Below are positions 7,089-25,494 of a DNA stretch of 41,262 nt, piece after piece. The DNA comes from Chloroflexi bacterium GWC2_73_18 (GTDB lineage: Bacteria > Chloroflexota > Limnocylindria > Limnocylindrales > CSP1-4). Every line of letters begins with the position of its first letter. The stretch's first letter is position 1. The position numbers were made by a program, and so were the translations under genes. The notes below the pieces were generated by a model. That model did not search any database and had not been told where the DNA came from. It saw only the letters and a list, made by a program, of their open reading frames with translations. The stretch is from NCBI GenBank assembly GCA_001794945.1, contig MGMJ01000050.1, positions 34,547-75,808 of the forward strand, in the 5' to 3' direction.

Positions 7089-7937
7089 TCAGCCCGCCAG
7101 CAGCCCCGCCAGCTTGCCCAGCAGACGCGCCGCCGCGCGCGGCGAAGAGAGGAGCACGTCGGCGGCGCCGGCGACGTCGGGTGGCATCTCGGCATGCGAG
7201 TGGACCCCCACGGCCAGCCCGTCGAGGGCCCCCGTGGCGCGCCGTTCGCGCAGGACCAGGAACATCTCCGCGTCGGCGCGGTCGTCGCCCAGGACGACGA
7301 GGCCGGCCGGGCGCAGCTCGTCGACGAGGCGGCGGATCGTCTCGCCCTTGCCGGCGGCGTCGGGCGGGCGGAGCTCGATGACGCGCCGTCCTGCGTAGCG
7401 CCGGAAGACCGCGCCCGGGTCGGCCGACTCGATCGCCTCGGCGACGCGGAGGCGGGCCGCCTCGCCGTCGGAGGCGCCCCGGAAGTGGAAGGCGACCGAC
7501 GGACCCTTCGGCTCCACCACGAGCCAGGGCTCGGGAAGCGCCGCCGCCACGCGCCCGGCAACCTGCTCCGCCTCGACGGTGAAGGGCGCCAGCTCCGGGT
7601 CGTGCACGACGCGCATGGCGGCGGCGCGGCCGCGTCGGGCGAGCGAGGCGCGCTCGAGGCCGAAGTTGCCCAGGTAGGTCGCCCCGCCGACCCGCGCCCG
7701 CGCCGCGAGGTCGGTCACCGTGCGCCCGGAGAGGAGCACGACGTGGACACCCCGGAGCGCCGCCAGCTGCCTCAGGGCGCGCTGCGCGACCGGGAGGACG
7801 CGCGCCCCCCAGGGGTCGACGACGATCTCGCTCAGCGTCCCGTCGAAATCCGAGGCGACCAGGAAGGGGCGTCGGCCGCGCAGCGAGGCGAGGCGCCCGA
7901 GGGCGACCTCGAGCGCGGCGTCCGCGTCACGCCTCAC
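7089..7937 (-). CDS. otsB: Trehalose-phosphatase (HAD family)
   Basis: DFDGTLSEIV HAD motif I, LLSGRTVTDL, FLGDDRADAEMF-like motif (VVLGDDRADAEMF). GTG start chosen at 7937; the upstream part of the 825-aa ORF looks spurious. Confidence 0.85.
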   Translation of the reverse strand: MRRDADAALEVALGRLASLRGRRPFLVASDFDGTLSEIVVDPWGARVLPVAQRALRQLAALRGVHVVLLSGRTVTDLAARARVGGATYLGNFGLERASLARRGRAAAMRVVHDPELAPFTVEAEQVAGRVAAALPEPWLVVEPKGPSVAFHFRGASDGEAARLRVAEAIESADPGAVFRRYAGRRVIELRPPDAAGKGETIRRLVDELRPAGLVVLGDDRADAEMFLVLRERRATGALDGLAVGVHSHAEMPPDVAGAADVLLSSPRAAARLLGKLAGLLAG

Positions 7938-8683
7938 GTGTCGAAGACGACGCCCGGCAGGACCTTCCCCAGCCCATCCCCCATCTGCGGCGGCCCGATC
8001 CCGCCGAAGGCCCAGGCGCGCACGATCCCGTCGCGGTCGATCCAGAAGTGCACCGGCATGACCCAGGCGGCCCAGAAGGCCCGCGTCTTCCCGTCCGGGT
8101 CGACGCCGACCGGGAAGGTCAGGCCCATCTCCTCGGCGAAGGCGGCGGCCGTCTCGGGCGACTCCTGGATATCGACGCCGATGACCACCAGGTCGAGCTC
8201 GGGATGGCGGGCGACGAAGCTGGCGATCAGCGGCAGCTCGTCGCGGCAGGCGAGGCAGGTGCTCGCCAGGAAGTTGACCCAGACCGGGTGACCGCGGTGG
8301 GCGGCCAGGTCGATCGTCCCGCCACCGAGGCGATCGACGACGAGGGGCGGGGCGAGGTCGCCGACCTGGAGGCCGGTCGTCGGGCTGCCGGAGGCGGCCG
8401 GTGAGCCGCTCTCCGGGGGAGACGGGCTCGTCCCGGGGGACGGCTCGAGCGACCCCGAGGGCAGGACCGAGGCGGAGGGGACGACCGGGGCGGAGGGCGA
8501 CTCGGGCGGAGGCGACGAGGGAGAGGCGGCGGGTGGCGGGCTCGGCGTGGGCGCCGGCGGCGGGGTCCGCGTCGCCGGGTCGGGCGCGTTCGCGACAAGG
8601 GCGCCGATCACCAGGACGACCAGCACGAGTCCGGCGACGAACCCGAGCAGGACCGGCGCGAGGCTGCGAGCGCGTCGTGACAC
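7934..8683 (-). CDS. TlpA-like thioredoxin-fold (redoxin) protein with N-terminal TM and Pro/Ser-rich linker
   Basis: VNFLASTCLACRDELPLIASF (CxxC), VVIGVDIQES, cis-Pro region VMPVHFWIDRDG. N-terminal hydrophobic helix. 4-bp overlap with otsB. Confidence 0.87.
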   Translation of the reverse strand: MSRRARSLAPVLLGFVAGLVLVVLVIGALVANAPDPATRTPPPAPTPSPPPAASPSSPPPESPSAPVVPSASVLPSGSLEPSPGTSPSPPESGSPAASGSPTTGLQVGDLAPPLVVDRLGGGTIDLAAHRGHPVWVNFLASTCLACRDELPLIASFVARHPELDLVVIGVDIQESPETAAAFAEEMGLTFPVGVDPDGKTRAFWAAWVMPVHFWIDRDGIVRAWAFGGIGPPQMGDGLGKVLPGVVFDT

Positions 8684-8777
8684 GGCGGGCAGTGTACGCG
8701 ACGAAGACGGTGCGAAGCGTCAACGGAACCCGGTCCGGGAACGCGGCGTCGTCGGAAGGCGCTGCTACGATTCGCCC

Positions 8778-9482
8778 GTGAGCCTCCTGACGCGTCTGCT
8801 CGGCCGCCTCCTGCGCCGTCTCGTGCCGGCGCTCCTGACCGCCTCCGGCGTGACGCTCCTCGTCGCCGGGCTTCTCTCGTACGACGCGACCGCCGGCCCG
8901 AGCCCCACGCCCCCGGCGACGACCAGCCCCTCGCCGGCGCCCACCTCCGGTCCGACGCCCTCGCCGGGATCCACCACCCCCGGGCCATCGGAGAGCCCGG
9001 CGCCGGGCGGCGTCGCCAGCCGCATCGCCATCCCCGCCCTCAAGATTGACCTGCCGGTCGTCGAGGGACCCCCCGGTTACCCCTACTGCGACGTGGCGAT
9101 GTACCTCAAGGAGTACTCCCAGCCCGGCCGGCCCGGCACGACCTACATCTTCGCCCACGCCCGAAAGGGGATGTTCCTGCCGCTCCTGGAGGCGTCCCTC
9201 CGCAGCAACGGGAAGTCGATGCTCGGCGCTCTCGTCCTCGTCTACACCACCGACGACCAGCTCTTCCTCTACGAGATCGACCGGGTCAAGCGCCACGCCC
9301 TCGACTTCTCGCTTGCCGACGAGCTCCCCGATGGGGTGACCGAGCAGCTCGTCCTGCAGACATCCGAGGGGCCCCACGGCACCAAGCCCAAGCTGCAGGT
9401 CCGCGCCAGGCTCCTCTACGTCACGACCGCCGATCACGAGCTGGCCAACCCCGAGCCGCACATCGATCGCTGCGGCTTCTAG
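8778..9482 (+). CDS. Sortase-like protein with Ser at the expected catalytic Cys position
   Basis: N-terminal TM, Pro-rich linker, RIAIPALKIDLPVVEG, TYIFAHARKGMFLPLL (His region), LVLQTSEGPHGTKPKLQVRARL (TLxTC-like position reads QTS). Confidence 0.7.
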   Translation: MSLLTRLLGRLLRRLVPALLTASGVTLLVAGLLSYDATAGPSPTPPATTSPSPAPTSGPTPSPGSTTPGPSESPAPGGVASRIAIPALKIDLPVVEGPPGYPYCDVAMYLKEYSQPGRPGTTYIFAHARKGMFLPLLEASLRSNGKSMLGALVLVYTTDDQLFLYEIDRVKRHALDFSLADELPDGVTEQLVLQTSEGPHGTKPKLQVRARLLYVTTADHELANPEPHIDRCGF

Positions 9483-11118
9483 GGCCTGGGCGCGCCTGGA
9501 GGGCGATGGCGGCGTCCGCTTCCTCGCCGGCACCGTCGCCGGTCGCGCGCCGCGGTCGCCCCGCACCCAGCAGCCAGGCCGGCACGATCGCCGCGACCGT
9601 CACCGCCAGGGCAATCAGGAAGAGGAGCGACATGATCTCGGCCGCCTGCCCGGCGGCCCAGCGCTCGAGCGCCTCGACGACGAGGCCGTCGTTGAGCGGC
9701 CGCCCCCGCAGCCCCGGCGGCAGGATGGTGTCGCGGAGCAACGGGTCGCCAACGATCCGGGCGAGCGCATCGATCCGGTTGCTGCCGAACTGCGTCAGGA
9801 CCGCCAGCCCGACGGTCATGCCGACCATACGGGCGACGGTGACGGCGGCCGAGGCGGCGCCGTAGGCGCGCCGGCCGAGCGCCTCGACCGCGGCGGTCGA
9901 ACGCGGCGTCACGGTCACCCCGAAGCCGAAGCCGAAGAGGGCGAGGTCGAGGGCGATCCGGGCGAGGTCGACATCCGGGCCCCAGGCGCCCATCCGCACC
10001 AGGCCCAGCGCCGAGAACGCCAGGCCGGCGAGTGCCGAGACGCGGAAGGCGAGCGCCCGCACCAGGAAGCCGGAGAGGAAGGCACCCGCGGCGACCGCCG
10101 CGGCGAGCGCGCCGAGGGCGACGCGCTGCGTCTCGGGCCCACCGTAGAGGACGCGGTCGACGAAGACCGCGCCGCCGACGATCGCCGTAGCCAGGCCGTA
10201 CCCGGTGAGCAGGCTGACGAGGACCGCCGAAGCGTAGACCCGGTCGGCGAAGTGGCGCGTCTCGATGAACCCGTCGACCACCAGCGCCCCGCGGACGACG
10301 GCGAGCGCCACCAGCGCGGCCGAGGCGAGGGCGAGCGCGAGCAGGCCGCCCGTCCCGCCGGGGACTTCGGGCGAGCCGGCCCAGGTGACGGCGGCCAGGC
10401 CGCAGCCGAGGCCGGCGGCGAAGAGGAGAGCCCCCGGCAGGTCGACCCGCCCCGGCCGCCGCGGCGTGTCTGTTCCCATCGCCGCCCAGCTGTAGGCGAG
10501 CGCCACGAGCCCGACCGGCACGTTGACGTAGAAGACCCACCGCCAGGCCGGCGTCAGCCAGTCCATCGCCGGGCTCCCGGCCAGGCCGGCGCCGGTGAGC
10601 GGGCCCTCGAGGCGCGCCAGGTCGAGGACCGCCGCCCCCACGAACGGCCCGACCGCCATCCCCAGGAAGGTGAGCGCCCCGATCAGGCCGAGCGCGCGCG
10701 GCCGCCCGCGTTCGTCGAAGAGGTGGCTCGCCCCGGCGGTGGCCAGCGGTACGAGCGCGCCGCCGCCGGCCCCCTGGACGACGCGGGCGGCGATCAGCTC
10801 GTCGAGGTCCTGGGCGCGCCCGGCGAGCGCCGAGCCCACGGTGAAGAGGGCGAGCGCGGCGAGGAGCAGGCGGCGCGTGCCGAGGACGTCACTGGCGCGC
10901 CCCGCGACGGGCATGACGGCCACGTAGGCGAGCAGGTAACCGTTGATGATCCACGATGCCCGCCGGAGCTGCGTCCAATCGGAGAGGTCGGGCACGATCG
11001 CCGGCAGGGCGACGGCGGTCACCATCAGCTCGAGGCCGGCCAGGAAGACCCCCGCCCCCAGGACGGCGAGCAGGACGAGCCGCCCTGCCGCGGCGGCCGG
11101 CCGGGGCCCCTGCACCAT
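9421..11118 (-). CDS. MFS transporter, DHA2 (EmrB/QacA)-like, 14-TMS type
   Basis: ATG at 11118 (MVQGPRPAAAAGRLVLL...). ASWIINGYLLAYVAVMPVAGRASDVLGTRRLLLAAL and RVVQGAGGGALVPLA are MFS-DHA2 signatures. Confidence 0.88.
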   Translation of the reverse strand: MVQGPRPAAAAGRLVLLAVLGAGVFLAGLELMVTAVALPAIVPDLSDWTQLRRASWIINGYLLAYVAVMPVAGRASDVLGTRRLLLAALALFTVGSALAGRAQDLDELIAARVVQGAGGGALVPLATAGASHLFDERGRPRALGLIGALTFLGMAVGPFVGAAVLDLARLEGPLTGAGLAGSPAMDWLTPAWRWVFYVNVPVGLVALAYSWAAMGTDTPRRPGRVDLPGALLFAAGLGCGLAAVTWAGSPEVPGGTGGLLALALASAALVALAVVRGALVVDGFIETRHFADRVYASAVLVSLLTGYGLATAIVGGAVFVDRVLYGGPETQRVALGALAAAVAAGAFLSGFLVRALAFRVSALAGLAFSALGLVRMGAWGPDVDLARIALDLALFGFGFGVTVTPRSTAAVEALGRRAYGAASAAVTVARMVGMTVGLAVLTQFGSNRIDALARIVGDPLLRDTILPPGLRGRPLNDGLVVEALERWAAGQAAEIMSLLFLIALAVTVAAIVPAWLLGAGRPRRATGDGAGEEADAAIALQARPGPRSRSDRCAARGWPARDRRS

Positions 11119-11606: not shown

Positions 11607-12275
11607 ATGAGCCCGGTCACCGGCGATCGCTCGTTCGTCGGCGTGGGCCTGCGCCAGCGGGTCCGCGAGGCGGTGGTCCCGCTCGCCCGCGCCCTCGGAA
11701 GGCTCGGGCTGACGCCCGACGCACTCACCCTGATCGGCTTTGCCGTCTCCGTGGTCGCGGCACTCGCCGCGGCGGCCGGCCTCTGGGTGGCGGCCGGGCT
11801 CCTCGTCGTCTTCGGCGGCCTCTTCGATCTCTTCGACGGCGCCCTCGCCCGAGTCCAGGGGAAGGCCTCGCCCTACGGCGCCTTCCTCGACGCCACCTTC
11901 GACCGCTGGGGTGAGACGGTCGTCTTCATCGGCATCGCGGCCGGGCTGCTGGGCCCGGGCGCCGCGGGAGTCGTCTTCCCCGCCCTGGGCGAGTGGCCGG
12001 CGGCGGCGCTGGTCGCCGTCCTCGCCGGAGCGGCGATGGGGGCCGCCTTCATGGTCAGCTACAGCCGTGCGAAGGCCGAGAGCGTGGGCTTCGAGGCGGC
12101 TGTCGGTGTCGCACCGCGGGCAGAGCGCATCGCCGTCCTCGCCGCCGGTCTCGTCCTCCAACCGGCGACCGGCTGGAGCCTCGGAGCCGCGCTCCTCATC
12201 ATCTTCGCCCTCGCCACCGTCACCGTCATCCAGCGCGTCGCGCACGTCCGCGCCCAGGCGCGTACGGGGCGTTGA
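11607..12275 (+). CDS. CDP-alcohol phosphatidyltransferase (PgsA-like; candidate PI / PI-phosphate synthase)
   Basis: Complete CDP-OH-P motif [23 protein letters not shown] (DGx2ARx8Gx3Dx3D) and multiple TM segments. Confidence 0.9.
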
Positions 12276-12301
12276 GCGGGCCAACTCAAGGAGACCGAGC
12301 A

Positions 12302-13522
12302 GTGGAGCAACAGCAGACCGCCGGCGGTGGCAACGGCCGGGCGCCGCGACGCCGCGACGGCAAGATCCGGGTCGCCATCGTCGGCGTGGGGAACTGCGCC
12401 AGCTCGCTCGTCCAGGGCCGCTACTACTACGAGAACGCCGAGCGGGGTCAACCCATCCCGGGCATCATGCACGTCGAGCTGGGCGGCTACCACATCCGCG
12501 ACATCGAGTTCGTGGCCGCCTTCGACATCGACCGCAACAAGGTCGGTCGCGACCTCGGCGAGGCGATCTACGCGGCGCCGAACAACACCTACGTCTTCAA
12601 GCAGGTCGGCACGCTCGGCGTCCCCGTCGAGCGCGGCATGACCCACGACGGCCTGGGCAAGTACCTGAGCCGCGTGATCGAGAAGGCGCCCGGCCCGACC
12701 GCCGACATCACCGGCATCCTGCGCGAGCGGGAGGTCGACGTCGTCGTCTCCTACCTGCCGGTCGGCTCGGAGGAGGCGACCAAGTGGTACGTGGAGCAGT
12801 GCCTCCGCGCCGGCGTCGCCTTCGTCAACTGCATCCCGGTCTTCATCGGTCGCGAGCCCTACTGGCAGCGCCGCTTCGTCGAGGCCGGCGTCCCGATCAT
12901 CGGCGACGACATCAAGAGCCAGGTCGGCGCCACGATCACCCACCGCGTGCTGACCCGCCTCTTCATGGATCGCGGGGTCAAGCTCGAACGCACCTACCAG
13001 CTCAACTTCGGCGGCAACACCGACTTCCTCAACATGCTCGAACGCGAGCGGCTCGAGTCGAAGAAGATCTCCAAGACGAACGCGGTCACCTCCATGCTGG
13101 ACTACGAGATCGCCGAGGGTGACGTGCACGTCGGCCCCAGCGACTACGTCCCCTGGCTCGACGACCGCAAGTGGTGCTACATCCGGATGGAGGGGACGAC
13201 CTTCGGTGACGTGCCGCTCAACGCCGAGCTCAAGCTCGAGGTGTGGGACAGCCCGAACAGTGCCGGCGTGGTGATCGACGCCATCCGCTGCGCCCGGCTC
13301 GGCCTCGACCGTGGCCTCGCCGGCACGCTCGTCGCGCCGTCGGCCTACTTCATGAAGAGCCCGCCACGCCAGCTGCACGATGACGAGGCCCGCGAGCTGG
13401 TCGAGGCATTCATCGCCGGCCGCGACGCGAGCGTGCTGACCGGCAGCGAGCCGGCGACGGCGCGGTCCCGGCCCACCCGCCGCGCCGCCGCCGGTCGTGC
13501 CCGGTCCGGGACCGACCGCTGA
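12302..13522 (+). CDS. ino1: Inositol-1-phosphate (myo-inositol-3-phosphate) synthase
   Basis: GTG start; [99 protein letters not shown]. Confidence 0.95.
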
Positions 13523-13530
13523 GGCCGGCC

Positions 13531-14562
13531 GTGCAGCCGCGCATGATGGGCCTCCGACGGCCGGGCGGCGCCGAGGGCGCCCCCCACCGCCGGCCCGCCC
13601 GGCGGCGGAGCCGGCTCACGGTCACCATCCAGGAGCGCCCTGTCCTGCTCGGCTGGCGCGCCCTGGAGTGGTTCTTCGCCCGCATGCCGCCACGCCTTGC
13701 CGTGGCGGCGATGCGGGGGCTCTACACGCTCGCCTACTACGCCTGGCCGCCCAAGGCCGAGGTGATGCGCTCGAACATGGCGCACGTCATGGGCTGGCCC
13801 CGCGACGACGCGCGCACGGCGGCCATGGCCCGGCGTTCCTACCGGACGTACGGGCGGTACCTGGCCGAGCTCCTCCGCCTCCCGTCGCGCCCGCGCGAGG
13901 AGGTGAGCGGCCTGATGGACGAGCACCAGCTCGAGAGCTTCATGTCGCTGCGCGAGGGATCGCACGGGATGATCGTCGCGTCGGCCCATCTCGGCAACGG
14001 CGAGGCGATGGTCGCCGCCTTCGCCCACCTCGGACTCCCGAGCAACGTCCTGGCCGACGACAGCTCGCAGCTCGAGCTCTTCGAGTATCTCAACGCCCAG
14101 CGGTCGCGCTGGGGCGTGCGCATGGTCCCGTGGCGCAACCTGCGCGAGGTCTACCGCATCCTGCGGCGGGGCGAGATCCTGGGGATCACCGTCGACTGGG
14201 GCTACCGGCCCGGCGACGTGCCGGTGCGCCTCTTCGGCACCTGGACCACGCTGCCGGCCGGCCCCGCCACCCTTGCCGCGCGGACCCGGGCGCTGATCCT
14301 GCCGATCTTCTCGTACCGCCAGTCGAACGGCCGCTACTTCGCCTTCCATACCGAGCCGATCCGGGTCGCCGACGACGCGCCGGCGACGATCCAGCAGGCG
14401 ACACAACGGATCGCCGAGGCGCTCGAGGAGGCTGTGCGCCGGGCGCCCGAGCAGTGGTACAGCTTCAAGCGCGTCTGGCCACGCACGGCCGAAGAGCAGC
14501 TCCGCCTCGAGACGCGGGCGGCCGAGCTGCTCGGCGCCGGGGCACGGGCGGGGAGCGCGTGA
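13531..14562 (+). CDS. Lysophospholipid acyltransferase-family protein (HtrB/PatA-like)
   Basis: HX4E motif in ASAHLGNGEAMVAAF; EQWYSFKRVWP C-terminal motif typical of the family. Confidence 0.85.
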   Translation: MQPRMMGLRRPGGAEGAPHRRPARRRSRLTVTIQERPVLLGWRALEWFFARMPPRLAVAAMRGLYTLAYYAWPPKAEVMRSNMAHVMGWPRDDARTAAMARRSYRTYGRYLAELLRLPSRPREEVSGLMDEHQLESFMSLREGSHGMIVASAHLGNGEAMVAAFAHLGLPSNVLADDSSQLELFEYLNAQRSRWGVRMVPWRNLREVYRILRRGEILGITVDWGYRPGDVPVRLFGTWTTLPAGPATLAARTRALILPIFSYRQSNGRYFAFHTEPIRVADDAPATIQQATQRIAEALEEAVRRAPEQWYSFKRVWPRTAEEQLRLETRAAELLGAGARAGSA

Positions 14563-15575
14563 GGCCGATGGCCGCCACCGTCGCTCCGGCCGCGCCAGAC
14601 CAGGGGACCGCGTCGGCGACGCTCCTCGACCGAGCCGGCGCGACGCTCGTCTCGCTCATCTCGTGGATCGCCTGTCGCCTCCCCGACCGGCCGCTCCATC
14701 GGATCGCGGGGCTCGTCGGGCTCGGCTGGTACCTCCTCGCGCCGCGCCGGCGGGCGCGGGCGCGGCGCAACCTGCGGCGGGTCGCCGAGGCGCTGGCGGC
14801 CGACGGGCGGGCGGGCCCGCGCATCGCGGCCGCGGCCCGCGACCGGCGCGCGCTCGAACGGCTGGTCCGCGACGCCTTCCGCCACAATGCCCGCTACTAC
14901 CTGGAGGTCGCCCTGGCGCCCTCCTACGACGAGCGCTGGCTCGCCGAGCGGATCGTCAACGAGTCGCCCGAGCTGATCGAGGAGGCGTTCGCGGGAGGGC
15001 GCGGCGCGGGTCGGACGCCCGGGCACGCCGTCATCTTCGCCGGCCTCCACTTCGGGGCGATCGAGTTGCCCGCCTTCTTCCTGACCCAACGCGTCGGCCT
15101 GCGCGTCGTCGCCCCGATGGAGACGATCCGCGACACGCCACTGCAGCGCTACTTCGTGCGCACCCGCGGGGCGGTGGGCCTGCAGCTGGTGACGCTGCGG
15201 ACCGCGCGGCGCGAGGCGTCGCGCGCGCTGGCGCGCGGCGAGGCGGTCGGGCTGGTGACCGACCGCGACATCACCGGCGGCGGCATCGACGTCCCGCTCT
15301 TCGGCCACCCCGCCCCGCTGGCGGTGGGAGCCGGCCTGCTCGCCATCGAGTCGGGTGCGCCGGTCTACGTGGCCGCCGTCAGGCGGCTCGACGACGGCCG
15401 CTACGCCGGCAGCATCGTCCCGCTCCCCGTGCCGGCCGACGGGACGCGACGCGAGCGGCTGGAGCGCTTCCTGCGCGACCAGGCGGCGATCTTCGAGTCG
15501 TTCATCGCCGCGGCTCCGGAACAGTGGTGGTCGGTCTTCTTCCCCATCTGGCCCGACCTCGAGGTGGCGTCGTGA
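14559..15575 (+). CDS. Second lysophospholipid acyltransferase-family protein (HtrB/PatA-like)
   Basis: HX4E in IFAGLHFGAIELPAFF; EQWWSVFFPIWP. GTG at 14559 or ATG at 14568. Confidence 0.85.
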   Translation: MRPMAATVAPAAPDQGTASATLLDRAGATLVSLISWIACRLPDRPLHRIAGLVGLGWYLLAPRRRARARRNLRRVAEALAADGRAGPRIAAAARDRRALERLVRDAFRHNARYYLEVALAPSYDERWLAERIVNESPELIEEAFAGGRGAGRTPGHAVIFAGLHFGAIELPAFFLTQRVGLRVVAPMETIRDTPLQRYFVRTRGAVGLQLVTLRTARREASRALARGEAVGLVTDRDITGGGIDVPLFGHPAPLAVGAGLLAIESGAPVYVAAVRRLDDGRYAGSIVPLPVPADGTRRERLERFLRDQAAIFESFIAAAPEQWWSVFFPIWPDLEVAS

Positions 15576-16342
15576 CGAAACGCCTCGGCAAGGCCGACCT
15601 CCACATCCACTCGGTCGCCTCGGACGGGACCGCGACCGTCGGGGAGATCCTCCGTTTCGCCGAGGAGCAGACCGACCTCGACGTGATCGCCGTCACCGAC
15701 CACGACCGCGTCGATGCCGCGCTCCACGCCAGGGAGCTGGCGCGACGACGCGGTGGCCGCGTCGAGGTGATCGTCGGGGAGGAGGTCTCGACGCGCAGCG
15801 GGCATCTGCTCGCGCTCTTCGTCGAGGAGCGGATCCGGCCCTGGCAGCCGCTCCGCCGCTCGGTCGCGGAGATCCACGAGCAGGGCGGCCTGGCGATCCC
15901 GGCGCACCCGCTGGCACCGTATCCGATCTGTATCCGGCGGGGCGCGCTCCTCTCCATCGTGGAGGACGCCGATCCGCTCCTCTACTTCGACGGCCTCGAG
16001 ACATTCAACCCCTCCTACGCGGGTCGCACCCACCACCGCGCCACGGCCGAGCTGAATGAGCGGCTCCACCTCCCGGCGATCGGCAACAGCGACGCCCACG
16101 TCACCTCGCTCATCGGCTGCGCCTACACGACCTTCCCGGGCCGCACGACAGAGGACCTGAGGCGGGCGATCCTGCTCGGCCGGACCCACGCCCACGGGCA
16201 GTTCCTCGACCTGCCGGCGGAAGTGCGCATCTACGGGCGGCAGCTGCGCAAGTACGCCCGCGATGTCCGCGACGACCTGCGGCGGGCGATCCTCGGCCGC
16301 GGCTCCGGCCGCGACCTCGGGATCCGCAAGGAGTCCTCGTGA
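15572..16342 (+). CDS. PHP-domain metal-dependent phosphoesterase
   Basis: KADLHIHSVASDGTATVGEILRFA, VIAVTDHDRVDAAL, GLAIPAHPL, GNSDAHV. Confidence 0.9.
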   Translation: MTKRLGKADLHIHSVASDGTATVGEILRFAEEQTDLDVIAVTDHDRVDAALHARELARRRGGRVEVIVGEEVSTRSGHLLALFVEERIRPWQPLRRSVAEIHEQGGLAIPAHPLAPYPICIRRGALLSIVEDADPLLYFDGLETFNPSYAGRTHHRATAELNERLHLPAIGNSDAHVTSLIGCAYTTFPGRTTEDLRRAILLGRTHAHGQFLDLPAEVRIYGRQLRKYARDVRDDLRRAILGRGSGRDLGIRKESS

Positions 16343-17601
16343 GGATCGGCCTCGTCACTCCCTACATCTACCCGCTCCCCGGCGGCGTCAACGAGCACGT
16401 CCGCTACCTCTACCAGGAGCTGCGGGCGCGCGGCCACGAGGTGCGCATCATCAGCGCCAGTCACGGGCTCCAGCCCGGCCAGGATGGAGACGTCATCCGC
16501 GTCGGCAAGGGGTTCTCGGTCCCTTCCAACGGCTCGATGGGCAACCTGACCGTTTCGCCCCGCTTCAACTCGCAGGTTCGCGCCCTGCTCGATCGCGAGC
16601 GCTTCGACCTGCTCCACTTCCACGAGCCGTTCGTGCCGTTCCTCTCGCTGGTGACCCTCCGCCAGTCGACCAGCGTCAACATCGCCACCTTCCATGCCTA
16701 CGCCGGCTGGAGTCTCGCCTACGAGTTCGGCCGGCGTGCCCTGCGCGGCTACGCCGCGCGCCTCCACGGCCGGATCGCCGTCAGCGCCGCCGCCCGCCAT
16801 TTCGCCGACCGCTACTTCCCCGGCGACTACAAGGTGATCCCCAACGGCGTCGACCTCTCGCGCCTCGAGGGCGCCGAGCCGATCGAGCGCTGGCGCGACG
16901 GCACGAAGAACGTCCTCTTCGTGGGGCGTTTCGAGCCTCGCAAGGGGCTGCTTCACCTGCTCAAGGCATACCGGCTCCTGCGCAAGGCGGGCTGCGACTG
17001 CCGGCTCCTCGTCGTCGGCACCGGCCCGCAGGAGCGCGAGGTGCGACGCTACATCATGACCCGCCGCATGGGCGGGGTCGAGCTGCTCGGGCGCGTCTCG
17101 GACGCCGATAAGGCGCGGCTCTTCGCCACGGCCGACGTCTTCTGCTCACCGGCGACCGGGGGCGAGTCGTTCGGCATCGTCCTGCTCGAGGCGATGGCGG
17201 CCGGTCGTCCGATCGTCGCCTCGGACATCCACGGCTACAAAGGCGTCGTCCACCGTGATGAGCAGGCGCTCCTCGTCCCGCCGCGAGATCACCGCGCCCT
17301 CGCCGGGGCGCTCGGCCGGCTCCTCGCCGACGAGGAGCTGCGGCGGTGGATGGGCGAGGCCGGGCGGCTGCGGGCGGCCCAGTTCAGCTGGGAGCGCGTC
17401 GCCTCCAAGGTGGACGACTACTACGGCTTCGTCATCCGGCGCCTGGCCGCTCAGGGAGCGCTGCCGTCGGGCTTCCGCGCCGAGGTCCCGCCGGCCCCGC
17501 CGCGCGCCGCCGAACGGTCCGGGTCGATCGCCGCGGAGGCACCCGTGGCAGCGCCGGCCGCGGCCGACCCGATCGGCCGCCAGCCGGCCGTCGCTCAGTA
17601 G
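16339..17601 (+). CDS. Glycosyltransferase family 4, PimA (phosphatidylinositol mannosyltransferase)-like
   Basis: MRIGLVTPYIYPLPGGVNEHVRYLYQELRARGHEVRII, VIPNGVDLSRL, VLFVGRFEPRKGLLHLLKAY, GGESFGIVLLEAMAAGRPIVASDIHGYKGVV. Confidence 0.88.
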   Translation: MRIGLVTPYIYPLPGGVNEHVRYLYQELRARGHEVRIISASHGLQPGQDGDVIRVGKGFSVPSNGSMGNLTVSPRFNSQVRALLDRERFDLLHFHEPFVPFLSLVTLRQSTSVNIATFHAYAGWSLAYEFGRRALRGYAARLHGRIAVSAAARHFADRYFPGDYKVIPNGVDLSRLEGAEPIERWRDGTKNVLFVGRFEPRKGLLHLLKAYRLLRKAGCDCRLLVVGTGPQEREVRRYIMTRRMGGVELLGRVSDADKARLFATADVFCSPATGGESFGIVLLEAMAAGRPIVASDIHGYKGVVHRDEQALLVPPRDHRALAGALGRLLADEELRRWMGEAGRLRAAQFSWERVASKVDDYYGFVIRRLAAQGALPSGFRAEVPPAPPRAAERSGSIAAEAPVAAPAAADPIGRQPAVAQ

Positions 17602-18365
17602 GTGATGGAGCGCGGCTCGCCCCAGGGCGAGATGTTGCCGGCCCGGTCGCGCTCACGCACGCGAACCTCGTAGCGGACGCCCGGGAAGGCGTTCAAGCGC
17701 AGCGACGTCGCGGTCGAATCGCGCAGGGGACGGTCGCCGCCGGCCCAGCGGAAGGTGACCGAGCCCGCGCCGCGCGTCGCGGTCGGCGCCGACACCCAGC
17801 CCGGGGTCCGATCCGGTCCCTTGATGAAGACCGCGGTGTAGAGGCGTCGCCCGGAGCCGTCGATCGCGGCGCCGACTCCCGCGTAGTTGTAGTCGCGACC
17901 CAGGATGATGGCCCGGTGGCCGGGGCTTTCCATCCACTGCTCGACCGCGGTCTCGGCCGAGGTGGCCCACGTCGGCCAGGTGTTCCAGGCGATGATCTCG
18001 CCGGCCCAGTACCAGGTGATCTCCCAGTCGGAAAGGATGTCGAAGACGGTCCGCCCATCGGGCTGGGTGTGGCAGAAGTAGCCCTTCGTCGCCATGTCGA
18101 GGCTCCGCTCCCGCGCGATCCGACCCAGGCGGGGGTCCTGGCGGACCGGCACCAACCCGGCCGCCTGGCGCTCCGCGTTGAACAGGCGGAAGACGATCTC
18201 CTCCGCGTCCCACGCGGACGTGTCGACGGCGGCCACGGTGCGCGGCGCCAGGGCGGCGACGAGGGGGAGGGCCAGGGCGGCGGCGAGCAGGGCCGCCGCG
18301 AGGCGGGTGACCGGGCGGGGCGGGCGGGACATCGCGAGGCTTCTCCGCGTGGTTCGATCGGGCAC
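17595..18365 (-). CDS. Secreted CAP/SCP-domain protein (YkwD-like) with C-terminal Ig/FN3-like segment
   Basis: Signal peptide-like N-terminus; LFNAERQAAGLVPVRQDPRLGRIARERSLDMATKGYFCHTQPDG and WMESPGHRAIILGRDYNYAGVGAAI. Start could be the internal Met of MSRPPRPV. Confidence 0.82.
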   Translation of the reverse strand: MPDRTTRRSLAMSRPPRPVTRLAAALLAAALALPLVAALAPRTVAAVDTSAWDAEEIVFRLFNAERQAAGLVPVRQDPRLGRIARERSLDMATKGYFCHTQPDGRTVFDILSDWEITWYWAGEIIAWNTWPTWATSAETAVEQWMESPGHRAIILGRDYNYAGVGAAIDGSGRRLYTAVFIKGPDRTPGWVSAPTATRGAGSVTFRWAGGDRPLRDSTATSLRLNAFPGVRYEVRVRERDRAGNISPWGEPRSITY

Positions 18366-18500: not shown

Positions 18501-21500
18501 CTAGGCGCGGTCCACCCCCGCCCCGAGCGCGTCCGACGCGCCGTCGCCGGGGGCCCCGGTGCGTCGGGCCCAGACCGCGTAGCCCGTCGCCGCGGCGAAG
18601 AACCCGGTGCCGGCGACGAAGAGGAGCGGCCAGGGGCCCAGGATCGAGGTGGCGTTCGCCGGCGCGGTGTTGACCGCGAACTGGAACGAATAGTCCCAGG
18701 TGGGCAGAAGGCGCTGATACGAGTACGCCTCCGGGTCGGCCGGCAGCGGCAGGCCCGAGATGTTCGGGTAGACGGCCAGGAAGTAGAGCGCGGCCGCCGC
18801 CAGCGCCACCATCACGTAGCGGCGAGGGTCGCGCGCGCCGAGTACCAGCCAGCCGAGCGCCCCCGCGAGGGCCAGGTAACCGACGACCAGCACGACCGCG
18901 GTGGTGATGAGGGCGCGGGTCGAGCCGGGGTCGAGGCTGCCCGAGCCGGTGCAGAGGTAAGCGCCCGGGTTGACCTGCCCGACGCCGGCGGCGGCGCAGA
19001 GCGGGTCCTTGAGCAGCCAGAGCAGCCCGGGCGCCATGATCGTCACCGCGGCCACGGCGCGGGCGAACTGCCAGGTGCGACGCGAGGGGCCGTGCCAGAG
19101 CTCGGCCAGGAAGTAGGCGAGCAGGAGCAGCGCGAAGGGGAGCGCCGTGTACCAATGGTACTGGAAGGTGGCGCGGTCGATGCGCGCCCAGGGGAGCCAC
19201 TGGGAGAGGAACGCCAGGACGACGAAGCCGAGCGCCGCGCTGCGTCGCCCCCAGGCCTGCCAGGCGCCGAAGGCCGCCGCCGGGACGGCCAGCCAGAAGA
19301 GGACCAGGTTGCCCATGTCGAAGATGTAGCCCTGCGTCCCACCGCCGTACGCCTGCGATGAGAACCAGACCGGCTTGAGATCGAACGGCCAGGCCCACCA
19401 GGGCGACGAGGCGGGGTGCGTGGCGCGCAGGTGGTCGTGGTAGTCGTACATGCCACCCTGCAGGTCGACGAAGAGCTGGCCCTCGTGGCCGGGTGGCCAG
19501 CCTGGCACGATCTGCGGGCCGCCGGCGTGCCACGGCATCGCCCACGGGACGTAGCTGAGCACGTAGACCGCCAGCGGCAGCGCGGTGAGGGCGAGGAGCG
19601 CCAGAAGGAAGGGGGCGCCGCCCAGGCGGACCGGGTCCGCCCAGCGCGGCTCGACCCGTCCAGCCACGGGGCGGAGCACGATCCCCGCGGCGAGCAGGGC
19701 GGTCAACCCGACCATCAGGCCGAAGAAGAAGAGGTTCGGCGGCGTCTGGACGACGGCCAGGTAGCCGAGGACGCCGGTCAGCACGACCATCCCCGCGAGC
19801 GCCAGGAGCCGCCCGGCACTCGAGCGGAACAGGACGATCAGCACCGCGCCGCCGATGGCGTAGGCGCCGACCCACTTCGCCGCCAGCGCCAGGCCGAGCA
19901 GGCCGCCGATGGCCGGCAGCCCGAGGAGGACGGCCAGGCGCCCGGTCCGGCCGGCCGGCGGGTCGATGAGCAGCCAGGCCAGCGCCAGGTAGGCGGCCAC
20001 GATGAAGAGGCCGACGTAGGTGTCGTTCATGGCGATCCGCGAGGTGGCGAAGAGCATCCCGTCGAGCAGCGCGACCACCGCCACCAGGAGCCCGACGGCA
20101 CGCCGCCGGAAGAGCCGGCGCGCCAGCAGGTAGAGGGCGGCCGCCAGCAGCACGCCGGCGACGACACCGGGGAAGCGCCAGGCGAAGGCGTTGCCGCCCG
20201 TGTCAACGGCGGCGACCCGGCCGCCGGCCTCGAAGACGAGCGCCTCCTCGCGGTCCAGCGCCGGGGTGTCCCGGGCGGCGTCAAGCACCAGGACGGCCGG
20301 GCGGAAGGGGAGGGCCGCGTCGGCGAAGACGGCGTTGGCGTGGGGCTCGACCACGTAGATCGTGGAGCGGCCGTCCGGCGTCTCGCCGAGCACGTGGACC
20401 AGGTTCGTCGCGGCGTTCCAGCGCACCTCGCCGACCGGTCCTGGCATCGCGAAGCCGGATCCCGGTCGGGGCGGCCCGTCGTCGCCCAGCTGGAACGTCT
20501 CGATGCGGGCGCCTTCCGTGGCGACGTAGAGCGTCGGCCGGTCGAGGCCGCCGACGCGGTCGAGGCCGGTCGCCGCCGCCGTCAGCGGCTCCTGGTCGAT
20601 CGTCTCGAGGGAGACCGCGTCGAGGATGGAGAGTCCGCTCCCGGCGGCCACGGCGAGCGCCTCGCGGTCGGTCACCTCGATGCCCGGCAGGTCGCCCGCG
20701 TCGATGGCGGCCTGCAGCTCGCTGCGCTGCTCGGCAGTCAGGTAGGAGGCGAGGCGGAGCTCATCGCCGCCGGCGCGGAGCCGCGCCGCGAGCGAGGCGC
20801 CGGAAACGCCGAGGACGTCGCCGAGGCGCGCGCCGGCCGCCTCCGGGTCGGTCACCTGCGCCGGATGGGCGACCAGGCTGCTGACCCCGCTCAGCGGGAT
20901 CGCGGCGGCCAGGCCCGGCACCGTCGCCGCGCCGGCCACTTCGCCCGTTTCCGGGTCGAGGCTGCTCAACCGGTCCCCCGCGCCGCGCAACACGACACGC
21001 CGGCCGGCGACCCAGAGCCGCTGGACGGGGCCTTCGACGCGCCCGACCTCGACGGGCTGCGCCGCCTGCGGCTCGCCGCCGACGCTCCGCAGGAGGTCGA
21101 GCCGGCCGGTCTCGAGCTGCCAGACGAGGCCCGTGTCGGTGCCGACGTAGAGCCGGTGCGCCGAGCTGTCGACGGCGACCGCGGAGGCTCCGTTGACGGA
21201 GAGGCGCGACTCGTCCTCACGGGAGAGCAGGTCGAGGACGCGGACGGCCGAGCCGGTGGCCACGAAGAGCCGGTCGCCGGCGCGCCGCTGCGGCTCGAGC
21301 GGGTCGGCGTAGCGCGGCTCGACGGCGACGTCGCGGACAGGCGTCCCGAGCGAGCTCTCGCCGGTGACGCGATCGTCGCCGAAGAGCACGATCCCCGCCG
21401 CGATCAGGTACTTCGCCAGGTGGGGGTGCGTGTACTCGTAGATGTCGTGCGGCATCCCGTAGCGCCAGTCCTGCAGGAACTCGGTCGCCGTTCGCGCGTG

Positions 21501-23360
21501 GTAGACCTCGTCGAAGTGCATCCCGTAGGGCTGGTCGAGCCGGAAGGTGCGGAGGGTCAGGGCGGCCACGATCAGCAGCGCCACGACCAGCGCATCGAGG
21601 CGGTCGAGACGGCCGGAGCCTTCGGCCCCCAGGAGCCGGCTCCGGTCGGCCCGCACCGCCGGGCGGGACAACCGGCGGCGCAGGGAGCCGAGCGCCACCG
21701 CCCCCGTGGCGGGTCCTGCGATTTCGGGCGCCTCGGTCACCGCCGGGGCGGGCACGAGGGTTGGGGCGGCCGCCCGCTCGAGTGGCACGGTCGGCCCTCC
21801 CGGCGCCCCGGCCGGCGGCCGGCTCCAGGGAGTCCGCCAGACGCGCCTCACCGGTTCGATCTCGGGCTCCGGCGCCGGTCTCGGCGCCCGGCCCAGGAGG
21901 CCGAGCAGGTCGTCGACCGCGGGTCGCAGCTGCCAGAGCGCCCAGGCGAAGAGGGCGGTGTGGGCGATCGCCACGATCACGACGGCGGCCTCGGTGCGGG
22001 TCTCCTCGGCGAAGAGGAGCCCGCGGAGCTGGGGCGTCCCGTAACCCTCCTGGGGCCGCGTCAGCACGGCGTGGAGGTTGACCAGGTTGACCAGCCCCAG
22101 CAGGACGTACCAGCGCCGCCAGGCGACCGAGCCGGCGGCCAGGAGCGCCCCCACCGCGAAGACCGGGAAGAGGTATCGCTCGTGGACGCGGGTGGGGAGG
22201 ACGAAGAGGCCGAGGGCGAGCACGGTCGTGGCCACGACGATCGAGGTCCGGTCGTCACGGCGCAGGAGCTGCCAGGCGATGAAGGCGAGGCCGGCGAGCA
22301 GAAGTCCCGTGCCGACGGCGACAAAGGGGACGGCCCCGAAGGCGAGGCCCAGGTCGCTCGTCCAGACGCCGGCGTGGGCCAGCGAGGTCGGGCCCACGAG
22401 CGCCCACAGGTTGTAGGCGTTGACCGTCAGGTAGTGGTACTCGCCTGCCGTCGAGCCGACCAGCACGAGCAGGCCGCCCAGGTCCCCGCCGATCGGGAAG
22501 CCGGGCGCCCGAGCCACCGCCAGCTCGGCCAGGTCGAAGGGAGTGATCGTGGCGAACGCGACGAGGAGTCCGACCGCCGCCGAGGAGACGAGCCGCCAGG
22601 GACCCTGCTCCGTGGTGAACCAGCCGCCCAGGCGGCCATCGAGCCAGGCGAGCGCGCCGCGCGGCTCGGGCACCGGCCCGCTCCCGGGGCGGAGCAGGTG
22701 GCGCCGCAGCAAGACGATCCCGACGACGAGCAGGACGATCCCGTACTGCGGCTTGATGATCGGGGCGAGCACGGCGGCGGCGACCGCCGGCTCGCTCCAG
22801 CCGCGGATCAAGAGCAGGACGGCGCCGAGCAGGACGAGCGCGCCGACCGCATCGACCTGGCCCCAGAGCGCCGACTCGTACCAGGTGATCGGGATGAAGA
22901 GATAGAGGGCGGCGGCGGCGAGCCCGGCGCGCTCGCCGGACCAGCCACGCGCCGTGCGATAGAGGACGCAGGCGAGGATGAGGTCGAAGACGATGGCGGG
23001 GACCTTGATCAGCGAGCTGACGTAGGCGCCCGCGCCGGCACCGGTGAGGTCGCCCAGGAAGCGCGCCGTCAGGCCCACCATCCAGAGCGGGTAGAGGTAG
23101 CCGGGGGTGTAGTCGGCGAAGCCGGCGTTCCGGTAGAAACCGTCCGGGCCGTGCTCGGCGAGGGTCAGCGCCCAGCTCGAGAAGCTGTCGATGTCGACCT
23201 TGAAGCCGGCGCCGGGGAAGAGGCCGTATGCGATGATGACCCGGAGCGCGAGGCCGGCGAGCAGCACGGCCACGAGGGCGGGGGTGATCGCCGGTACCGG
23301 GACCCGGCCTCCCGACGCTCCGGAGCCCCGACCGGGTTCACCCGTCTGGGGCGCTCTCAA
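18501..23360 (-). CDS. Giant bimodular GT-C membrane protein: N-terminal mannosyltransferase-like module, Pro-rich linker, C-terminal PMT (GT39)-like module with a beta-propeller-like insertion
   Basis: Single uninterrupted ORF. Candidate TTG start at 23360. N-module FKVDIDSFSSWALTLAEHGPDGFY...WYESALWGQVDAVGALVLLGAVLLL; PMT module MHFDEVYHARTATEFLQDWRYG...YTHPHLAKYLIAAGIVLFGD. Confidence 0.8.
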   Translation of the reverse strand: MRAPQTGEPGRGSGASGGRVPVPAITPALVAVLLAGLALRVIIAYGLFPGAGFKVDIDSFSSWALTLAEHGPDGFYRNAGFADYTPGYLYPLWMVGLTARFLGDLTGAGAGAYVSSLIKVPAIVFDLILACVLYRTARGWSGERAGLAAAALYLFIPITWYESALWGQVDAVGALVLLGAVLLLIRGWSEPAVAAAVLAPIIKPQYGIVLLVVGIVLLRRHLLRPGSGPVPEPRGALAWLDGRLGGWFTTEQGPWRLVSSAAVGLLVAFATITPFDLAELAVARAPGFPIGGDLGGLLVLVGSTAGEYHYLTVNAYNLWALVGPTSLAHAGVWTSDLGLAFGAVPFVAVGTGLLLAGLAFIAWQLLRRDDRTSIVVATTVLALGLFVLPTRVHERYLFPVFAVGALLAAGSVAWRRWYVLLGLVNLVNLHAVLTRPQEGYGTPQLRGLLFAEETRTEAAVVIVAIAHTALFAWALWQLRPAVDDLLGLLGRAPRPAPEPEIEPVRRVWRTPWSRPPAGAPGGPTVPLERAAAPTLVPAPAVTEAPEIAGPATGAVALGSLRRRLSRPAVRADRSRLLGAEGSGRLDRLDALVVALLIVAALTLRTFRLDQPYGMHFDEVYHARTATEFLQDWRYGMPHDIYEYTHPHLAKYLIAAGIVLFGDDRVTGESSLGTPVRDVAVEPRYADPLEPQRRAGDRLFVATGSAVRVLDLLSREDESRLSVNGASAVAVDSSAHRLYVGTDTGLVWQLETGRLDLLRSVGGEPQAAQPVEVGRVEGPVQRLWVAGRRVVLRGAGDRLSSLDPETGEVAGAATVPGLAAAIPLSGVSSLVAHPAQVTDPEAAGARLGDVLGVSGASLAARLRAGGDELRLASYLTAEQRSELQAAIDAGDLPGIEVTDREALAVAAGSGLSILDAVSLETIDQEPLTAAATGLDRVGGLDRPTLYVATEGARIETFQLGDDGPPRPGSGFAMPGPVGEVRWNAATNLVHVLGETPDGRSTIYVVEPHANAVFADAALPFRPAVLVLDAARDTPALDREEALVFEAGGRVAAVDTGGNAFAWRFPGVVAGVLLAAALYLLARRLFRRRAVGLLVAVVALLDGMLFATSRIAMNDTYVGLFIVAAYLALAWLLIDPPAGRTGRLAVLLGLPAIGGLLGLALAAKWVGAYAIGGAVLIVLFRSSAGRLLALAGMVVLTGVLGYLAVVQTPPNLFFFGLMVGLTALLAAGIVLRPVAGRVEPRWADPVRLGGAPFLLALLALTALPLAVYVLSYVPWAMPWHAGGPQIVPGWPPGHEGQLFVDLQGGMYDYHDHLRATHPASSPWWAWPFDLKPVWFSSQAYGGGTQGYIFDMGNLVLFWLAVPAAAFGAWQAWGRRSAALGFVVLAFLSQWLPWARIDRATFQYHWYTALPFALLLLAYFLAELWHGPSRRTWQFARAVAAVTIMAPGLLWLLKDPLCAAAGVGQVNPGAYLCTGSGSLDPGSTRALITTAVVLVVGYLALAGALGWLVLGARDPRRYVMVALAAAALYFLAVYPNISGLPLPADPEAYSYQRLLPTWDYSFQFAVNTAPANATSILGPWPLLFVAGTGFFAAATGYAVWARRTGAPGDGASDALGAGVDRA
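20185..21375 (-). other. Beta-propeller (YVTN/PQQ-like) insertion within the PMT module of the preceding CDS (approximate limits)
   Basis: Repeats such as GDRLFVATGSAVRVLDLLSRE, SSAHRLYVGTDTGLVWQLETG, RPTLYVATEGARIETFQL and GRSTIYVVEPHANAVF, lying between LIAAGIVLFGDD and AFAWRFPGVVAGVLLAAALYLLARRLF. Confidence 0.65.
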
Positions 23361-23390
23361 TCGGTCCGGCCTCCTGGACGAGCGACGAAG

Positions 23391-24662
23391 GTGCAGCGCA
23401 GTATAGCAACGCGCATCCGGTCGACCGGGCTCGCGCTGGTGCTGCTGGCGCTGCTCGTCTACCTGGTTTCCAACCCGGGCCGCGCGAACCTCTACGGCCA
23501 CTACGTCTGGCAGGCGGACGCCTGGCTGCACGGGCGATTCGCCATCCCCTTCCCGGTCGCCGAGGGGGCGGTCACCAACGACCGGTACCTCGACGTGATC
23601 CCCATCCCTGGATCTCCCGGCTACGGCCTCATCCCCTACCCGCCGCTCCCGGCGATCCTGCTGCTGCCGGCCGTGGCGATCTTCGGGCTGGCCGCCGACG
23701 CGGGCCTCCTCGCCCTCGCCCTTGGGGCGGTGAGCGTCGGGCTCGCCTGGCGCCTGGTGAGGCGCCTCGTCACCGACCGGCGCGCCGCGCTCCTGGCGAC
23801 GCTCTTCTTCAGTTTCGGCACCGGCGCCTGGTACGCCGCCGCCCGGGGAAGCACCTGGTTCGAGGCGCACGTCGTGGCGCTCGCCTGCACGCTGTTGGCC
23901 ATCACCCTGTCGCTCGACGCGGAGCGTTCGGAGAGCCCGCGTCGCCTCGACCCACGCCAGGTCGCGGCGGGCTTCCTGCTCGGGCTGGCGGCCCTGGCGC
24001 GCCTGCCGACGATCTTCGGGCTTCCGTTCCTCCTGCTCGTCGGGGGCGGTCGTTCACCCTTCCGGCGGGGTGCCGCAGCGGCGCTCGGGGCGGCGGTCCC
24101 GCTTCTCTTCCTGCTCGCCTACAACCTCGCCTCGTCGGGCGCGCCGTTCCAGCCGGGATACGAGTCGCTCTACCGTACCGAGACGCCGGCCCTCCCCGCC
24201 TTCCATCACCCGGATTGGGCGATCGAGGACCCGCGCTATCTGCCCCAGAACCTGCTGATCATGCTCGCCGAGCCGCCGACGATCCGGCTCGAGTGCGGCC
24301 TCCGCTTCTTCGACCCCGACTGCCCCACGATCAGCCCCGACCCGCTCGGCATGAGCCTGCCGCTGACCAGCCCGGCCTACCTGCTGGCGCTCCCGCTGCT
24401 GGTCGGGATCCGTCGCGACCGGCTGCTGGCCGGCGCCTTCCTCGCCATCGCCGCGATCGCCGCGGTCGACCTGATGCACTTCAGCCAGGGCTGGGTCCAG
24501 TTCGGCTACCGCTTCAGCAACGACTGGGCGCCGTTCGCCCTGGTGCCGGTCACGCTCGCCCTGGCCCGGCCCGACGCCCGCCGCATCGGAGTCGTCCTTG
24601 TCGCCGCGTCGATCGCCGTGAACGCCTGGGGGAGCCTGTGGGGTGCGCTGCGCGGCTGGTGA
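23391..24662 (+). CDS. Polytopic membrane protein, probable GT-C-type glycosyltransferase/mannosyltransferase
   Basis: GTG start; multiple TM helices; NLYGHYVWQADAWLHGRFAIPFPVAEGAVTNDRYLDVIPIPGSPGYGLIPYPPLPAILLLP. Divergent from the giant GT-C gene. Confidence 0.65.
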   Translation: MQRSIATRIRSTGLALVLLALLVYLVSNPGRANLYGHYVWQADAWLHGRFAIPFPVAEGAVTNDRYLDVIPIPGSPGYGLIPYPPLPAILLLPAVAIFGLAADAGLLALALGAVSVGLAWRLVRRLVTDRRAALLATLFFSFGTGAWYAAARGSTWFEAHVVALACTLLAITLSLDAERSESPRRLDPRQVAAGFLLGLAALARLPTIFGLPFLLLVGGGRSPFRRGAAAALGAAVPLLFLLAYNLASSGAPFQPGYESLYRTETPALPAFHHPDWAIEDPRYLPQNLLIMLAEPPTIRLECGLRFFDPDCPTISPDPLGMSLPLTSPAYLLALPLLVGIRRDRLLAGAFLAIAAIAAVDLMHFSQGWVQFGYRFSNDWAPFALVPVTLALARPDARRIGVVLVAASIAVNAWGSLWGALRGW

Positions 24663-24705
24663 TCGGCGGGCTGACGCCGCCCGGCATTGTGGGACACTTC
24701 GCGCC

Positions 24706-25494
24706 GTGACCGCTGCCCGGGTCCCCGAGATCTCCTACTTCTTCCCGGCCCACAACGAGGAGGCCAATCTCGAGGCGCTCATGGACGAGGCGCTCGAGGC
24801 GCTCCCCGAGCTGGCCGAGCGCTTCGAGATCATCGCCGTCGACGACGGCAGCCGCGACGGCACGCCGGCGATCGCCGACCGCCTGGCGGCGTCCCATGCG
24901 GGCGTCGTCCGCGTCGTCCACCACCCCACGAACCTCGGCTACGGCGCCGCGCTGCGCAGCGGCTTCCGCGCCGCCCGCTACCCGCTCGTCTGCTTCACCG
25001 ACGGCGACCGCCAGTTCAGGGTCGCCGACCTCGGCCGCCTTCTCGAGCGCGCCGCCGGGCCCGACCGCCCCGACGTCGTGGCCGGCTTCCGCTTGAAGCG
25101 CGCCGATCCGCCGCTCCGGCTCGCCTATGCGCACATCTACCGGGCCTGCCTGGGCCTCTTCTTCAGGCTCTGGGTCCGCGACGTCGACTGCGCCTGCAAG
25201 CTCTTCCGGCGCGGTGCGCTCGAGGGGATCCGCCTCGAGTCGGGCGGGGCGTTCCTCTCGGCCGAGCTCCTGATCAAGCTACGCGCGGGGGGCCGCTCGC
25301 TCGTCGAGGTCGGCGTGCCGCACTACCCGCGAACGGCCGGCTCGCCGACCGGGGCGAAGCCGTCGGTGATCCTGCGCGCGGTGCGCGACTTCTGGCGGCT
25401 CCGCCTCCTGCTCTGGTTCGCCCCGGCGCGCGCCCGGGGCCGCGGAGCGGCGGTGCTCGGCGACGCCGCTGCGGATGGCGGTCGAGAAGCCTAG
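24706..25494 (+). CDS. Glycosyltransferase family 2, dolichyl/polyprenyl-phosphate mannose synthase-like
   Basis: ISYFFPAHNEEANLEALMDEALEAL, IIAVDDGSRDGTPAIADRL, NLGYGAALRSGFRAARYPLVCFTDGDRQF. GTG start at 24706. Confidence 0.87.
   Translation: MTAARVPEISYFFPAHNEEANLEALMDEALEALPELAERFEIIAVDDGSRDGTPAIADRLAASHAGVVRVVHHPTNLGYGAALRSGFRAARYPLVCFTDGDRQFRVADLGRLLERAAGPDRPDVVAGFRLKRADPPLRLAYAHIYRACLGLFFRLWVRDVDCACKLFRRGALEGIRLESGGAFLSAELLIKLRAGGRSLVEVGVPHYPRTAGSPTGAKPSVILRAVRDFWRLRLLLWFAPARARGRGAAVLGDAAADGGREA

Follow-up and report, generated by a model that had tools for sequence, protein, structure and literature searches.

A predicted beta-propeller inserted beside the catalytic aspartate of a PMT-like glycosyltransferase fused to a second GT-C enzyme in Chloroflexota

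The locus and its fused membrane enzyme

The window analysed here, the whole stretch of 41,262 nucleotides from Chloroflexi bacterium GWC2_73_18, contains a minus-strand open reading frame at positions 18501-23870 with a nominal length of 1789 amino acids, in which two multi-spanning modules follow an N-terminal stretch that looks noncoding. We placed the whole fused gene at 18501..23360 on the minus strand; it encodes an N-terminal GT-C module and a protein O-mannosyltransferase (PMT)-type GT-C enzyme that carries a predicted propeller as an insert. The start of the gene is uncertain: of the common start codons, only TTG at 23360 lies upstream of the first transmembrane segment (TM; residues 171-205 examined), which lies near residue ~195, and the next candidates, GTG at 23273 and GTG at 23267, both fall within that segment. 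The divergent neighbor gene starts near 23391. An open frame of 1748 amino acids antisense to the PMT gene (19416-24662, plus strand) was rejected as a high-GC artifact, with only its 3′ end, from 23391, being gene-like, and matches to SufS in a single-sequence PDB search with the whole protein were dismissed as chance.

The fused gene lies between two groups of genes. Divergent from it are a third GT-C-like membrane protein, PMT_2/GT87-like (23391..24662, plus strand), and a GT2 glycosyltransferase (24643..25494, plus strand), the likely donor synthase, whose closest solved relatives are polyprenyl-phosphate sugar synthases. The similarity of GT2 to ArnC somewhat exceeds that to dolichol-P-mannose synthase, which leaves room for a sugar other than mannose. 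On the other side, in convergent orientation, a phosphatidylinositol-mannoside (PIM) biosynthesis-like cluster at 11607-17601 consists, in order, of a phosphatidylinositol-phosphate (PIP) synthase-like CDP-alcohol phosphatidyltransferase (11607..12275, plus strand), the inositol-3-phosphate synthase Ino1 (12365..13522, plus strand; TIGR03450, E 3e-159), a PatA-like PIM acyltransferase (13531..14562, plus strand), a PHP protein, and a PimA-like GT4 phosphatidylinositol mannosyltransferase (16339..17601, plus strand; PDB 4n9w/2gej, E 3e-64). A secreted protein with a CAP/YkwD domain, encoded between pimA and the PMT gene (17595-18365, minus strand), was dropped as a partner, being present in 1 of 59 loci.

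The N-terminal module (21831..23288, minus strand) is a second GT-C enzyme that precedes the PMT within one fused open reading frame, and it is conserved in the class. Its AlphaFold2 (AF2) model (pLDDT 81.6) has a GT-C_A fold resembling ALG6 and PimE, the only Foldseek matches with a target TM-score of at least 0.6 (0.66 and 0.60, respectively), among several GT-C folds that show low E-value contrast. At the sequence level, Pfam matches to GT87 and Alg6_Alg8 were obtained in the N-terminal half of relatives; GT87 was matched in 13/37 of them (best E 1.6e-6) and not in the window protein. The module carries Asp226 in loop 1, Lys373, and an HERY motif at residues 563 to 566, all invariant wherever present. 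In PimE, an Asp acts as the base, and Lys and His contact the phosphate (PMC12041525), suggesting that Asp226, Lys, and His of the N-terminal module could stand in for PimE D58, K195, and H322, a correspondence inferred for unaligned residues. The fold and the conserved loop-1 Asp are what this half has in common with the lipid-acceptor transferases PimE and ALG6, whereas the sequence similarity is too weak for a family call and the half is fused here to a PMT.

The PMT half is split into two parts on the minus strand. Part 1 (21372..21605) covers TM1 and the N-terminal half of extracytoplasmic loop 1, including the catalytic D787-E788 (21507-21512) and HPHLAKY at residues 815 to 821, whereas part 2 (18504..20192) runs from TM2 to the C terminus and contains SRIAMND (D1283), a WWAWP loop, and RATF (R1566, F1569). 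In a Pfam scan, PF02366 (PMT; E 3.8e-11, 43.5 bits versus a cutoff of 22.7) and PF16192 (PMT_4TMC; E 2e-15, 57.3 bits versus a cutoff of 32.4) were recognized, while the score for the Pmt equivalog NF058602 fell far short of its cutoff (43.7 versus 800 bits). In the Mycobacterium tuberculosis PMT (MtPMT), D74, D176, R441, and Y444 are experimentally essential (PMC12331936). Their counterparts in the window protein are D787, D1283, R1566, and F1569, none of which varies among 51 relatives. Phe at the last of them is the residue found in yeast Pmt1, and MtPMT with F in place of Y444 keeps almost half of its activity (PMC12331936). In alignments, FDEVYH of loop 1 matches FDEVHF of Pmt1/Pmt4 (D and E invariant in 51), SRIAMND, with the loop-2 Asp, matches SRYILLD of yeast Pmt1 (Asp invariant in 51), and RATF, the loop-5 Rx2[F/Y] motif, matches RQMF of Pmt1 in a weak stretch of the alignment (R and F invariant in 51). 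Loop 4 also has a PMT-type stretch, MYDYH...HPASSPWWAWP, that can be aligned with Pmt4 and favors a PMT-like reaction. The TM1-loop 1 DE, HP[PH]L, loop-2 Asp, loop-5 Rx2[FY], and PMT plus PMT_4TMC domains are common to the bacterial GT39 PMTs of M. tuberculosis, Streptomyces, and Corynebacterium, to which the window protein adds a 393-residue predicted propeller in loop 1, an N-terminal second GT-C module, and a penicillin-binding protein (PBP)-related module nested in the propeller. Near model residues ~650-670 and ~915 of part 2, relatives have ~90 and ~80 extra residues that are absent from the window protein, which thus has two loops shorter than those of most relatives.

The loop-1 insert and its nested module

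The earlier note on this DNA had described a PMT interrupted by about 395 residues at 20185-21375. Our alignment agrees within a few bases, placing the insert at 20193..21371 on the minus strand (393 amino acids, residues 834 to 1226; boundaries are alignment based). The loop-1 segment HFDEVYHARTATEFLQDWRYGMPHDIYEYTHPHLAKYLIAAGIVLFGDD is followed by the 393 residues and then by NAFAWRFPGVVAG, the start of TM2, so that the GT39-like enzyme is split between HPHLAKY...FGDD and NAFAWRFPG, which begins at residue 1227. An insert of 300 to 453 residues occurs at the identical joint in 51/51 aligned relatives. Both this joint and the motif positions bear out the location proposed in the note, the first extracytoplasmic loop. 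The insert follows directly on the C-terminal side of the catalytic DE/HP segment, and the PMT domain is recognized by HMM only downstream of the insert.

Next, the PMT half (1034 residues) was modeled with AF2 from an alignment of 51 sequences, giving a pLDDT of 88.7 and a pTM of 0.89. Model residues 80 to 468 are all-beta, with about 28 strands, interrupted by a helix-helix-strand-helix excursion at 254 to 302 and a short helix at 166 to 175. The top Foldseek match of the model was Chaetomium Pmt4 (9i5k), and propellers of the BamB and WD40 types made up most of the remainder (E 1e-8); the target TM-score was 0.62 to 0.71 for most seven-bladed WD40 structures and ~0.5 for the eight-bladed BamB. 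The propeller postulated from YVTN/PQQ-like repeats in the earlier note is thus recovered by structure prediction. The insert is predicted to form a closed ring of four-stranded blades, probably seven, to judge from the strand count and the TM-scores. The sequence profile agrees weakly (YncE, E 2.7e-5), and the Pfam and NCBIfam matches in the insert were scattered PQQ_2/WD40 propeller hits, all below threshold, with PQQ_2 under its curated cutoff. The fold is shared with YncE/YVTN, BamB/PQQ, and WD40 propellers, while the window protein has no propeller Pfam family above cutoff, and it is mainly because of structure and conservation that we take the insert to be more than a weak repeat match. 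No free-standing copy of the propeller was found in 261 Chloroflexota genomes among the candidates scored (at most 7 per genome).

Conservation is lower in the propeller than in the enzyme core, with a mean column identity of 0.49 versus 0.66 and with 21/393 versus 156/606 positions conserved at at least 90%. Two of its residues, E420 and G462 (A2 numbering; E1175 and G1217 of P0001), do not vary among 51 sequences. Locally, the insert is most stable at a PHG/HG turn close to its end, which reads VVEPHG in family f1, VVVEPHG or VETHG in f3/f5, and MPHG in one member of f4.

A GT39 membrane core and an all-beta accessory domain on the lumenal or extracytoplasmic side are also found in the eukaryotic MIR-containing PMTs (Pmt1/Pmt2/Pmt4 and POMT). 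Their MIR beta-trefoil is located in lumenal loop EL4, whereas the window protein has a propeller in loop 1, a difference in position that the note had pointed out, and a Pfam scan for a MIR domain in the fused protein gave no match. The MIR domain binds peptide that already carries mannose and adjusts processivity (PMC7759382). That the propeller might play a similar role is offered as an idea only, by analogy. A search of open-licence PMC papers found no described PMT subfamily with such an insertion, in keeping with the new position that the note had inferred.

Within the insert, profile positions 165 to 254 match class B PBPs and not propellers. This nested module (20658..20882, minus strand) comprises ~75 alpha/beta residues homologous to the dimerization/pedestal region of these proteins (PBP_dimer, PF03717). 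The whole insert matched 4ovd with an E of 8e-7 and the 75-residue subalignment with one of 8e-9, and profile-profile comparison by hhalign with PF03717 proteins gave 98.1% (E 8e-14, 72/75 columns). As a control, eight whole genomes were searched in six frames with the subalignment; in the six genomes that were also scanned for PF03717, the best matches after the f1 PMT genes fell in PBP_dimer genes. An Ala-rich chance match was ruled out by this search together with the profile-profile comparison. The module corresponds to part of the dimerization/pedestal region. A Pfam scan for a transpeptidase domain in the fused protein gave no match, and the module sits inside the propeller of a glycosyltransferase. 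It is missing from 5/45 relatives, the f4 propellers align across the gap where it is absent, and it is doubled in one relative (L160, from G002; residues 1064 to 1135 and 1179 to 1246, inside one propeller), indicating an insertion within an insertion. Most simply, the module was acquired inside family f1, and its PBP origin suggests a docking surface toward envelope-building partners. To our knowledge, reuse of a PBP pedestal module within a glycosyltransferase has not been reported.

Distribution of the insert and conservation of the neighborhood

Relatives were sampled deeply within Chloroflexota, and a collection of 85,000 species was scanned; the named organisms among the best 80 of its 261 matches were Chloroflexi CSP1-4, Candidatus Limnocylindrales, and Candidatus Aquidulcis. 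A PMT_4TMC gene is present in 114/121 genomes of the sampled class. Long PMT forms, with open frames mostly of 1100 to 2400 residues, characterize families f1 to f5, and the f4 genomes additionally keep canonical PMTs of ~500 residues; elsewhere in the phylum the open frames are mostly 470 to 850 residues long. In a tree built from the core only, the insert-bearing enzymes formed one clade (SH-aLRT 99), sister to the insert-free Chloroflexota PMTs L122, L130, and L144, so that the search for homologues with and without the insertion, which the note had proposed, yielded both kinds. The flanks of the joint are closely similar in L130 and L144, and the empty site of L130 reads IFGDN-SFGWRF, against LFGDD-[393 aa]-NAFAWRF in the window protein; the N-terminal sequences of L130 and L122 are too short for the GT-C module. 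By hhalign, the f1 insert is homologous to those of the other families (96.8% with f3/f5 and 98.6% with f4). Overall, a single gain of the propeller insert, conserved across the class and absent from the sister PMTs, is well supported. The accessory domains known from PMTs, MIR and a WW-like loop 4, are located at other sites in the enzyme. The large domain described here entered a single time, next to the catalytic Asp, and has been retained class-wide, with insert-free sisters available for comparison on the question of how PMTs select acceptors.

Two divergent paralogues, L158 (G016:C67) and L161 (G005:C7), have open frames of 3001 and 2616 residues with 44 to 56 predicted TM peaks and are apparently fused to further membrane domains. 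L161, from an f1 genome, and L152, from an f4 genome, cluster together near the window protein, which could reflect horizontal transfer.

The placement of the fused gene between a divergent GT2 and the PIM cluster is conserved across the class. GT2 lies near it in 43/51 loci with flank, and in the same contig region also in f2, f4, and f5; pimA is found on the opposite strand in 36/51 loci with enough flank. In genomes from five families, PimA and Ino1 were present in 15/15 and GT2 in 12/15, and several copies of PimA/Ino1 in f3, f4, and f5 share a contig with the fused gene. At the f2 loci, PimA does not adjoin the fused gene, yet it is encoded elsewhere in the genome, so the linkage is not obligatory. 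This neighborhood, the N-terminal GT-C enzyme, and the nested PBP module all lie beyond what the earlier note had described. Physical and genomic links tie the PMT to a PimE/ALG6-like enzyme, to a gene resembling a donor synthase, and to a PIM cluster, which suggests a PIM-type envelope pathway in these Chloroflexota; among open-licence PMC articles we found no paper on PIMs or such a pathway in Chloroflexi.

Possible function and rival explanations

The architecture, fold, active-site residues, single gain, nested module, and conserved neighborhood computed here are, taken whole, best explained by a two-headed polyprenyl-P-mannose-dependent enzyme whose propeller would serve as an extracytoplasmic platform for acceptor or product and whose PBP-derived module would serve in docking, an explanation that we put forward tentatively. 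One membrane protein would then expose a pair of GT-C active sites at the outer face. Its C-terminal half would act as a GT39/PMT-type inverting transferase taking mannose from polyprenyl-phosphate-mannose, which is probably supplied by the neighboring GT2, and the N-terminal ALG6/PimE-like GT-C would probably add a further sugar to the product of the PMT half. Growing out of extracytoplasmic loop 1 beside the catalytic Asp, the propeller may form a rigid platform for recruiting or holding either the acceptor, in the likeliest case an exported protein with a stretch rich in Ser/Thr, or the product once mannosylated, so that both heads could act on it. The module borrowed from class B PBPs would most simply be a docking surface for the envelope-building machinery. 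We counted against the platform that the propeller is conserved less well than the core and shows no recognized sugar- or peptide-binding site.

A protein acceptor is somewhat more likely than a PIM or lipoglycan because the PMT half retains the full GT39 active site together with the Pmt4-like loop 4, and all characterized GT39 enzymes, as far as we know, act on proteins. A lipid acceptor is close behind because of the PIM neighborhood and the PimE-like N-terminal half. In that case, which we consider possible if doubtful, the enzyme would work on the outer face, using polyprenyl-P-mannose to extend PIMs or a glycolipid of the lipomannan type, in the manner of PimE, MptA, or MptB, and the propeller would hold the growing lipoglycan. 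The conserved neighborhood is indeed that of the PIM pathway, not a protein secretion or glycoprotein locus, which counts against a protein acceptor: the PIP synthase-Ino1-PatA-PHP-PimA series converges on the fused gene, pimA recurs on the opposite strand in most loci, and PimA and Ino1 occur in every genome tested, several times on the contig of the fused gene. The N-terminal module, PimE-like in fold, keeps the loop-1 Asp, the Lys, and the His, and in f4 genomes the separate canonical 500-residue PMT could do the protein work. However, the complete set of GT39 residues and the loop 4 of the PMT half argue against a lipid acceptor, as does the absence of PimA linkage at f2 loci.

Departing from the platform in another way, the propeller could be a structural or assembly module for dimerization, partner binding, or positioning at the site of cell-wall synthesis, with no direct part in acceptor choice. 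Its surface and length (300 to 453 residues) vary freely, and the nested module is absent or doubled in some relatives, as expected of a docking surface. Further support comes from PBP2, in which binding of the regulator MreC has been proposed to make the head and anchor domains open and close (PMC10449877). We nevertheless judge a purely structural role unlikely, since the insertion beside the catalytic Asp, kept in every relative examined across the class, suggests a link to catalysis, and E1175, G1217, and the recurrent PHG/HG turn also speak against it. Less probable still is a bolder proposal, in which a two-headed mannan-building enzyme would couple outer-face mannosylation, of protein or of PIM/lipoglycan, to cell-wall synthesis, the propeller feeding acceptor to both sites and the PBP-derived module docking to the elongation or division machinery. 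Finally, the source is a metagenome-assembled genome of 137 contigs, and a GC content of 72 to 75% leaves many frames open, so a chimeric contig or two genes taken as one had to be weighed. Such an artifact has a negligible probability: the identical order and joint recur in one open frame in over 50 genomes that different studies assembled independently, a recurrence by which we ruled out both forms of it, and a single AF2 model with high pTM spans both joints.

Elsewhere in the window, an open reading frame with a sortase domain (8547-9482, plus strand) overlaps a frame with a trehalose-phosphatase domain on the opposite strand (7089-9566, minus strand).
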